NCBI GenBank assembly: GCA_019634955.1 | Contig: JAHCAK010000017.1 | Coordinates: forward strand, 1-64,000 | Length of the DNA stretch: 64,000 bases | Direction: 5' to 3' | Source: Burkholderiales bacterium | GTDB taxonomy: Bacteria > Pseudomonadota > Gammaproteobacteria > Burkholderiales > Usitatibacteraceae | In this document: positions 1,800 through 7,656 of the stretch, piece by piece | Numbering within the stretch: the stretch's first letter is position 1 | Layout of the letters: the number at the start of each line of letters is the position of its first letter | The notes under the pieces: model-generated | Seen by the model: only the letters and a program-made list of their open reading frames with translations | Databases searched by the model: none | Told to the model about the DNA's origin: nothing | Made by a program: the position numbers and the translations under genes

Positions 1800-3734
<1,935 letters not shown>

Positions 3735-3775
3735 GGTGGGTTCCCCTTCTTTCGGGCAAGCTCGGAATTGGGGCG

Positions 3776-3804
3776 AAATGGGGGTGGCCCCGGGCGGTTT
3801 CAAG
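3776..3804 (-). promoter_or_regulatory. Sigma-32 (RpoH) heat-shock promoter of htpG
   Basis: On the minus strand the sequence reads CTTGAAA (3804-3798), a 14-nt spacer, then CCCCATTT (3783-3776). This matches the proteobacterial RpoH consensus CTTGAAA-N11-16-CCCCATnT essentially base for base, and htpG is a classical RpoH target. The predicted transcript begins near 3769 and gives a leader of roughly 35 nt. The -35 element occupies the same bases as the likely -35 of metH on the other strand. Confidence 0.85.
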
Positions 3805-3827
3805 CCCCCCGGCCGCTGGTGTAAAAT
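3798..3827 (+). promoter_or_regulatory. Housekeeping promoter of metH
   Basis: TTTCAA (3798-3803), an 18-nt spacer and TAAAAT (3822-3827) form a fair sigma-70 promoter. The predicted start, about 3834, falls right at the 5' edge of the SAM-II-like aptamer, which supports both calls. The -35 hexamer is shared, on the opposite strand, with the htpG RpoH promoter. Confidence 0.55.
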
Positions 3828-3831
3828 GCCG

Positions 3832-3893
3832 GCTCCAGCGCCGATTTGATCCCTCAGCTTGCGGGCGCTCAACAAATCCAGCTAAAGCGACCG
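3832..3893 (+). promoter_or_regulatory. SAM-II-like (SAM_alpha) riboswitch aptamer in the metH leader
   Basis: Compared from memory with the SAM-II consensus, the leader shows the same ordered blocks: a P1 strand AGCGCC (3837-3842), GATTTG (3843-3848), a pyrimidine-rich loop ending CTTGC, the P1 partner GGCGCT (3864-3869), then CAAATC (3873-3878) and the hallmark AGCTAAA (3880-3886). AGCGCC/GGCGCT and GATTTG/CAAATC are each perfect 6-bp complements in H-type pseudoknot order. It sits between the metH promoter and a terminator, and controls a methionine-synthesis gene, as expected for an S-adenosylmethionine sensor. A covariance-model search was not possible here; SAM-V, which shares the core, is the alternative. 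Confidence 0.75.
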
Positions 3894-3899
3894 GCCCCG

Positions 3900-3931
3900 A
3901 AAACCCGTCGCCAGAAGCTGACGGGTTTTTT
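3900..3931 (+). terminator. Intrinsic terminator/attenuator ahead of metH
   Basis: AAAACCCGTC (3900-3909) pairs perfectly with GACGGGTTTT (3920-3929) across a 10-nt loop, and the T-run continues to 3931. It lies 7 nt after the aptamer and 20 nt before the metH start, so it can only serve to stop metH transcription. It is the natural expression platform of the riboswitch: SAM bound, transcription stops. Confidence 0.8.
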
Positions 3932-3951
3932 GCTTTCGAGAGACGCCGACC

Positions 3952-7656
<3,705 letters not shown>

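Follow-up and report, generated by a model that had tools for sequence, protein, structure and literature searches.

SAM-II riboswitches with terminators in beta-proteobacteria are already in print (PMC2258182). Corbino 2005 described SAM-II as an element with P1, P2 and, in many cases, putative intrinsic terminators, and with a likely start site just before P1, which is also the layout proposed for the metH leader considered here; a few examples lay outside the alpha group, Bordetella being named in a legend (PMC1273637). According to Meyer 2009, the commonest hosts of SAM-II are Alpha-, Beta- and Gammaproteobacteria (PMC2704228), and a review places SAM in P2, where it contacts the ribosome site. 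A SAM-dependent terminator has been predicted for metZ of S. meliloti (Scheuer 2022, PMC9373788), and the mechanism of SAM-II-driven termination was called not yet experimentally established by Barrick & Breaker 2007. The sensor type, the bacterial group and the terminator were all known before, and the copy in the window (the whole stretch of 64,000 nucleotides that was analysed) is new as a member. An earlier note on this DNA had regarded the added terminator and the beta lineage as an extension of the range of SAM-II, a view at odds both with the published record (PMC2258182) and with an order-wide RF00521 search, in which, of 399 genomes, 178 reach E<=0.001 and 69 score over the cut-off. 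The less expected parts are metH as the controlled gene and the sharing of strands between sensor and terminator.

The aptamer ahead of metH

Sequence analysis confirms that positions 3837-3887 of the window hold a SAM-II (SAM_alpha, RF00521) aptamer ahead of metH; the SAM-II-type features were read from the sequence and their letters re-checked at the coordinates (Table 1). A P1 stem whose loop carries the conserved core, a P2 pseudoknot joining this loop to the stretch 3' of P1, and the GCUAAAG tail are all present, and the gene downstream, metH, belongs to the methionine/SAM pathway, as for SAM-II. The reading of the earlier note held up in its details: the perfect complements AGCGCC/GGCGCT and GATTTG/CAAATC stand in pseudoknot order at 3837-3878, and the AGCTAAA tail is followed by a 10-bp terminator hairpin whose T run ends 20 nt before the ATG of metH (at 3952, 64 nt past the aptamer tail), the gene being assigned by Pfam and NCBIfam. 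We take the SAM-contacting strands of the solved SAM-II structure to be the core and the tail, with counterparts here at 3854-3862 and 3880-3887. The -10-like hexamer occupies the same place in the genus leaders, as TAAAAT or TAGAAT in six of seven and as TAAGAT in L004. A simple promoter/terminator scan of the metH leader region found no sigma-70 consensus promoter, and its list did not contain this terminator, the loop limit of the scan being 8 nt against a loop of 10 nt here. An Hsp90 (htpG-like) ORF on the minus strand (window 1800-3875) diverges from metH; the start codon actually used by this ORF probably lies near 3735, which would place both divergent promoters within roughly 200 nt. 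The window is of betaproteobacterial lineage, its closest named MetH (93% identical) being that of Betaproteobacteria bacterium FeB_7, and the riboswitch has the same place in the FeB_7 genome as in G001 of the window's genus.

Table 1. Features of the metH leader and of metH in window coordinates (A1, aptamer alignment described in the text)
Feature	Position	Strand	Remarks
-10-like hexamer TAAAAT	3822..3827	+	read from sequence; start site inferred at ~3834, just 5' of P1
RF00521 SAM_alpha match	3828..3906	+	35.0 bits, E 9.7e-7 (181-nt stretch)
P1 5' strand AGCGCC	3837..3842	+	pairs with 3864-3869
P2 pseudoknot 5' strand GATTTG	3843..3848	+	pairs with 3873-3878
Conserved core TCAGCTTGC	3854..3862	+	columns mostly invariant or near-invariant in A1
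P1 3' strand GGCGCT	3864..3869	+	complement of 3837-3842
P2 pseudoknot 3' strand CAAATC	3873..3878	+	complement of 3843-3848, interleaved with P1
Conserved tail AGCTAAAG	3880..3887	+	3' end of the aptamer, also proposed antiterminator strand; GCTAA invariant in A1
Tail letters AGCTAAA	3880-3886	+	read from sequence
Proposed antiterminator hairpin	3879..3920	+	CAGCT 3879-3883/AGCTG 3916-3920, GCGAC 3887-3891/GTCGC 3907-3911, GG 3893-3894/CC 3904-3905
Intrinsic terminator	3900..3931	+	10-bp stem, 10-nt loop, T run 3926-3931 (six T)
Terminator arms AAAACCCGTC / GACGGGTTTT	3900-3909 / 3920-3929	+	read from sequence
AAGCTGA, second possible antiterminator contact	3915..3921	+	7 bp with core TCAGCTT 3854-3860
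metH, cobalamin-dependent methionine synthase, 1234 aa	3952..7656	+	Pfam; NCBIfam (TIGR02082, PRK09490)

The Rfam SAM_alpha model, proposed as a check in the earlier note, matches the leader (35.0 bits, E 9.7e-7 in the 181-nt stretch and 4.9e-6 genome-wide). This score lies below the curated cut-off of 36 bits, so that a whole-window gathering scan lists nothing. Among the seven other genomes of the genus, four have metH leaders over the cut-off (37.7-39.5 bits) and two have leaders below it (30.7 and 27 bits), and no RF00521 match was found in the seventh, G006. At E<=0.01, RF00521 matches 11 of the 28 genomes of the GTDB family, counting that of the window, and the four over the cut-off are all in the window's genus. 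None of 14 control genomes matches at E<=0.01; at looser limits, three match at E<=0.05 and all 14 at E<=10, none over the cut-off, and weak RF00521 matches alone therefore mean little. The window's genome has a second SAM-II, before metX (G000:C7:10202-10275), in which an additional G precedes the pseudoknot strand; this copy was accepted despite its low score (21.8 bits, E 0.0185) because its motif is complete and metX lies downstream (tblastn). The RNAfold energy of the metH leader is indistinct from that of shuffles (z -0.79), a measure that says little about a pseudoknot. P1 and the P2 pseudoknot cannot appear in one RNAfold structure; the fold of 3830-3935 has the terminator formed and the P2 strands paired, with P1 unpaired, and that of 3835-3931 has P1 formed.

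P1 covaries, mainly at its outermost pair. In alignment A1, comprising 49 of the 148 distinct aptamers, 90.5% of the P1/P2 cells are paired and 20 are changed on both sides, and the covariation score is 0.136 against a shuffled mean of 0.062; none of 500 shuffles reaches the observed paired fraction, number of both-sided cells or covariation score. By the same three measures the proposed register is the highest of seven when compared with six slid ones, and the register slid by +2 has three pairs with both-sided change against two in the proposed one. The number of pairs with both-sided change (2) and the number of pair types (9) are not above shuffles (279 and 278 of 500, respectively). Nineteen of the 20 both-sided changes fall at the outermost P1 pair. 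Across the 49 aptamers, 99.3% of P1 cells and 81.6% of P2 cells are paired. The covariation of both stems that the earlier note had suggested looking for among relatives is thus found for P1 and not for P2, which has one-sided changes only, with no both-sided change, and is nearly invariant, too conserved to tell on its own. Collectively, the RF00521 match, the assignment of metH, the genus leaders, the closest MetH and the P1 covariation support the central claim of that note, a SAM-II-type riboswitch with a terminator before metH in a beta lineage.

Target genes of SAM-II leaders across the order

The leader set consists of the best RF00521 matches and is not random, the next 100 by rank having been fetched from the order listing. 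From 173 candidate leaders, seven without a parsable core were dropped; inspection by eye suggests that three of these (L149, L201 and L208) are real variants and the other four (L124, L143, L145 and L263) noise. Removal of four duplicates left 162 distinct leaders. The gene downstream of these best-scoring leaders is metX in 71 cases, metZ in 46, metH in 23, metK in 5 and another gene in 17, the labels resting on tblastn with one MetX, MetZ, MetK and MetH reference each, so 'metZ' may include close relatives. Of the 23 metH leaders, seven were found in the window's genus and nine in five other families of the order (f11, f19, f23, f29 and f39); the remainder belong to two Methyloversatilis, Propionivibrio dicarboxylicus, Undibacterium hunanense and three MAGs (L061, L078 and L079).

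Starting from metH instead, the 500 nt upstream of the gene contain a SAM-II core pattern at 11 of 80 public-genome loci, including both Methyloversatilis, three Undibacterium and an Oxalobacteraceae MAG in which a hairpin is inserted into the SAM-II copy, and 69 are without a match; the RF00521 search among the public metH genomes covered 39 of the 80. Given these proportions (11/80 loci, 23/162 leaders), metH is a recurrent but minority target of SAM-II, and the 22 further metH leaders carrying SAM-II make the window copy no oddity. In the passages of open-access literature searched, we found no paper that places SAM-II before metH in beta-proteobacteria; one listed paper, PMC5069961, contains both 'SAM-II riboswitch' and 'metH'.

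Two further kinds of locus were met in the leader set. At L029 (1501-2994), SAM-II precedes metK and an SAH riboswitch (61.2 bits) follows 1.3 kb downstream, which sets a SAM synthetase beside what is presumably an SAH-controlled gene. Tandem leaders (L265-L269, in the first 2.8 kb of the leader strand, and L022, L184, L227 and L260) combine a canonical SAM-II with terminator and, behind it, a second aptamer of variant form, exemplified by GCGCCGATTTAATCGACAACTTGCGGGGCGC...GCTAAAGCG; the tandem arrangement of SAM-II is already known (PMC9481103). The gene behind these leaders encodes a small orphan protein of about 95-115 aa (MFDC.../MYDC...), and for two of its representatives no Pfam family and no NCBIfam family over the cut-off was found. 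In all five extended loci the long ORF after the orphan protein looks like a MATE transporter, confirmed by NCBIfam in two (L265 and L269) and judged by eye in the other three; in L227 the distance from the first aptamer to a downstream MatE ORF is 473 nt. A putative SAM-controlled MATE transporter is a good lead.

Terminator, tail pairing and the proposed switch

The window copy is best read as a genuine SAM-II riboswitch of the ordinary kind whose terminator is probably regulatory, and it very probably serves as an off-switch acting on metH when SAM is plentiful, SAM binding and termination both being predicted. The computed basis comprises the sequence and topology of the aptamer, the covariation of P1, the position ahead of metH, the sequence of the terminator and a complementarity between tail and terminator that exceeds controls. 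For the metH leader we infer the following scheme of SAM binding, folding order and termination. Transcription would start just 5' of P1. In the absence of SAM, the aptamer's 3' tail (CAGCUAAAGCGACCGG) would pair with the 5' arm of the terminator that follows and with its loop; the terminator would then close too late, and the polymerase would read into metH. With SAM, P2 and the binding pocket would hold the core and the AGCUAAAG tail, leaving the 5' arm of the terminator free; the terminator would close and transcription would stop ahead of metH.

A terminator-like hairpin follows 139 of the 162 distinct leaders, a detector count uncorrected for background, including 57 of 71 metX and 42 of 46 metZ leaders; four of the 23 metH leaders have none detected. 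By eye, several of the 23 leaders of any target that lack a detected terminator do have a hairpin, its T run being short or broken (e.g. L010, L034 and L126, the last being the metH leader of Methyloversatilis thermotolerans). The pairing tests covered the 139 leaders with a terminator, the 23 others being left out, and drew on 875 control terminators, obtained with the same detector from both strands of the metH loci L044-L123, which may include chance hairpins. For the tail, the folding energy of tail plus terminator, cut before the 3' arm is complete, was compared with that for 120 sampled controls. The leader's own terminator falls in the best 5% of controls in 72/139 leaders and in the best 1% in 40/139, with 67/139 outside the best 5%; by gene, the best 5% takes in 15/19 metH, 5/5 metK, 22/57 metX, 22/42 metZ and 8/16 other leaders. 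With shuffled tails as the control, 80/139 leaders lie at <=5%, again including 15/19 metH leaders, and the metH leaders L125, L130, L140 and L226 show no special tail pairing by control terminators or tail shuffles. In the window, a tail hairpin as strong is reached by 0.8% of the 120 control terminators and by 0/100 shuffled tails. Pairing of the tail with its own terminator better than with controls suggests that capture of the tail by SAM releases the terminator.

Ungapped Watson-Crick helices of at least 7 bp join the tail and the 5' half of the terminator in 19/139 leaders (0.5% of controls) and the core and the 3' half in 27/139 (0.7% of controls), the core-type contact thus being enriched across the wider leader set. 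The crossed combinations give such helices in 3 and 1 of 139 leaders against 1.1% and 0.4% of controls, with a milder excess for shorter ones. By duplex energy, the core contact ranks in the best 5% in 21/139 leaders and in 0/19 metH leaders. When terminators are swapped between leaders, core contacts of at least 7 bp with G-U are found in 31.9% against 33.8% for own terminators. Since the contact strands are nearly invariant and the swap hardly weakens the contact, the complementarity belongs to these terminators in common and does not reflect leader-by-leader covariation; the genus leaders are too alike to show any covariation of the antiterminator.

In folds of the window transcripts, which leave out pseudoknots, ligand and kinetics, the minimum-energy structure contains the tail hairpin for ends from 3919 to 3928 and, at 3931, the terminator in its place. 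At 3922 and 3925, CAGCU...GCGAC.GG pairs with CC.GUCGC...AGCUG, and the entire structure, P1 included, has -26.3 kcal/mol. The full leader to 3931 prefers the terminator at -28.9 kcal/mol, and has -27.0 kcal/mol with P1 forced, core and tail kept free and the terminator formed. Such a tail hairpin appears in five of six folded genus leaders, with L006 favouring a different register. In six of 19 metH leaders (L140, L167, L183, L192, L256 and L261) no more than 5 nt separate the tail from the start of the detected hairpin, and the two are thus not cleanly distinct. The contact TCAGCTT/AAGCTGA between core and terminator was considered as the main antiterminator of the genus and rejected: it has 7 bp in the window and a longest helix of 5 bp in L003-L007, and none of the 19 metH leaders with a terminator has its core contact in the best 5%. 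Forced at 3925, it gives -23.1 kcal/mol against -26.3 kcal/mol for the tail hairpin. Because the core contact is not kept in the genus and is weak in metH leaders, the tail hairpin is preferred as the antiterminator; the pairings of core with 3' half and of tail with 5' half are nested, and one leader can thus use both.

From these models, a shared-strand antiterminator, in which the aptamer tail pairs with its own terminator, appears moderately probable. We hold with similar, reserved confidence a broader proposal: a wider beta SAM-II regulon (metX, metZ, metH and metK) whose terminators would have evolved to pair with both SAM-contacting strands, the 5' arm mimicking the partner of the GCUAAAG tail and the 3' arm that of the CAGCUUGC core, so that ligand and antitermination would compete for the same nucleotides, and to which the metXZ element and Bp2_287 (see below) would belong as the same riboswitch, the latter on the wrong strand. 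It is unlikely that the aptamer has another output, the terminator being a fixed attenuator or the switch mainly translational. Both forms have parallels: the S. meliloti metA terminator is not predicted to be SAM-responsive (PMC9373788), and ten metX leaders (L031, L037, L127, L132, L136, L204, L205, L209, L221 and L225) have no detected terminator and a start codon 9-11 nt past GCTAA, which probably puts the ribosome site in the aptamer tail and suggests a translational version within the set. In the window, however, the start codon is 64 nt past the tail with the terminator in between, and the complementarity of terminator and tail is above control expectation.

Bp2_287, the metXZ element and other described systems

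The functional RNA might instead be a small RNA from the minus strand, as in Rfam Bp2_287 (RF02424), whose model matches 3931-3804 on that strand (27.8 bits, E 8.1e-5). The 'sRNA' Bp2_Cand287 was reported upstream of methionine genes in most genomes, with an RT-PCR signal in B. pseudomallei; its reverse transcription, however, was oligo(dT)-primed, and the strand is therefore not settled (PMC3521395). We consider a minus-strand RNA very improbable and rejected it, since the match is below the RF02424 cut-off of 70 bits and, at most of the RF02424 loci read, the SAM-II core lies on the opposite strand, as does metZ at the three places over the cut-off; here too the match runs opposite to metH, and in this orientation the RNA would begin with the A run of the terminator. 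Across the order, 80 of 399 genomes match RF02424 at E<=0.001. Three places exceed the cut-off (L154-L156), and at each metZ adjoins, on the strand opposite to RF02424. Among the matches listed, at least 43 of 87 RF02424 places overlap RF00521 places, all on the opposite strand and none on the same, and the other 44 have no RF00521 place among the matches listed. Nine of ten RF02424 loci that were read contain the SAM-II core pattern, each on the opposite strand, and L156 is without a pattern match. Bp2_287 thus looks like a SAM-II riboswitch on the wrong strand. A Burkholderia-type SAM-II before metZ (L154:1501-1673 and L155:1501-1677) carries an additional segment, GGG...CCC, that separates P1 from the tail; RF00521 does not match this form even at E 0.5, and its Rfam match is RF02424, on the other strand.

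Leyn 2014 reported SAM_alpha only in Rhizobiales and Rhodobacterales and described a new 'metXZ' element, with a terminator, in 35 beta genomes, with six conserved regions that include a pseudoknot of regions 1-4 and 2-6 and an unpartnered region 3; regions 3 and 4 were guessed to be the antiterminator (PMC4239095). The description fits the leaders before metX and metZ, the genes behind 71 and 46 of the 162 leaders of the wider set (metH in the case of the window copy), and by comparison with this published description the metXZ element is probably SAM-II. No paper equating metXZ or Bp2_287 with SAM-II was found in the passages of open-access literature searched.

Another SAM-family riboswitch (SAM-V, SAM/SAH or SAH) at the metH leader is very improbable. 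SAM-V resembles SAM-II in its overall pseudoknot and in many ligand-contacting bases (PMC2704228), and SAH riboswitches control metH in Comamonadaceae (PMC4239095). Within 3780-3960, however, RF00521 is the sole SAM or SAH family to match at E<=10, and the single SAH riboswitch found in the window's genome sits elsewhere (G000:C2:57952-58061). We take the SAM-V family to be RF01826. SAM-V, which the earlier note had wished to see run beside SAM_alpha, gave no match at E<=10 in 3780-3960, nor did RF01057 (SAH), and all three kinds were rejected for the metH leader on this ground. Chance or decayed sequence, in whose favour one could cite the score below the curated RF00521 cut-off, is scarcely conceivable in view of the genome-wide E of 4.9e-6, the conservation in the genus and the covariation of P1.

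If the switch is real, SAM would exert direct feedback on cobalamin-dependent methionine synthase in several beta-proteobacterial lineages, in contrast to Leyn 2014, where SAH riboswitches or transcription factors are named for metH (PMC4239095). The putative shared-strand antiterminator offers an account of SAM-II-driven termination that is open to experiment. Furthermore, RF02424 merits re-examination as SAM-II on the other strand, and metXZ merits comparison with RF00521. The points of general value are the shared-strand antiterminator, metH and metK as targets, and two seemingly mis-filed relatives, metXZ and Bp2_287.

Among the described systems, the SAH riboswitch (RF01057) resembles the window copy in having been reported before metH, in Comamonadaceae (PMC4239095), and differs in its ligand and in having no match at the metH leader. 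Bp2_287 (RF02424) covers the same DNA on the complementary strand, whereas it is filed as an sRNA gene and its over-cut-off places adjoin metZ. The SAM-II of Sinorhizobium meliloti metZ likewise has a predicted SAM-dependent terminator behind the aptamer (PMC9373788), although in an alpha-proteobacterium and before metZ. With the metXZ element the window copy has in common a beta lineage, a two-pair pseudoknot around a conserved unpaired region, a terminator and methionine genes, but metXZ was described as an element distinct from SAM_alpha and solely ahead of metX or metZ (PMC4239095), a comparison based on the text of that description. Closest is SAM-II itself (RF00521), with P1, the P2 pseudoknot, the conserved core, the GCUAAAG tail, the place in the leader of a met gene and the terminator downstream all common to both; the window copy departs from it in being 1 bit under the cut-off and in its target, which is metH and not metA, metX or metY/metZ.
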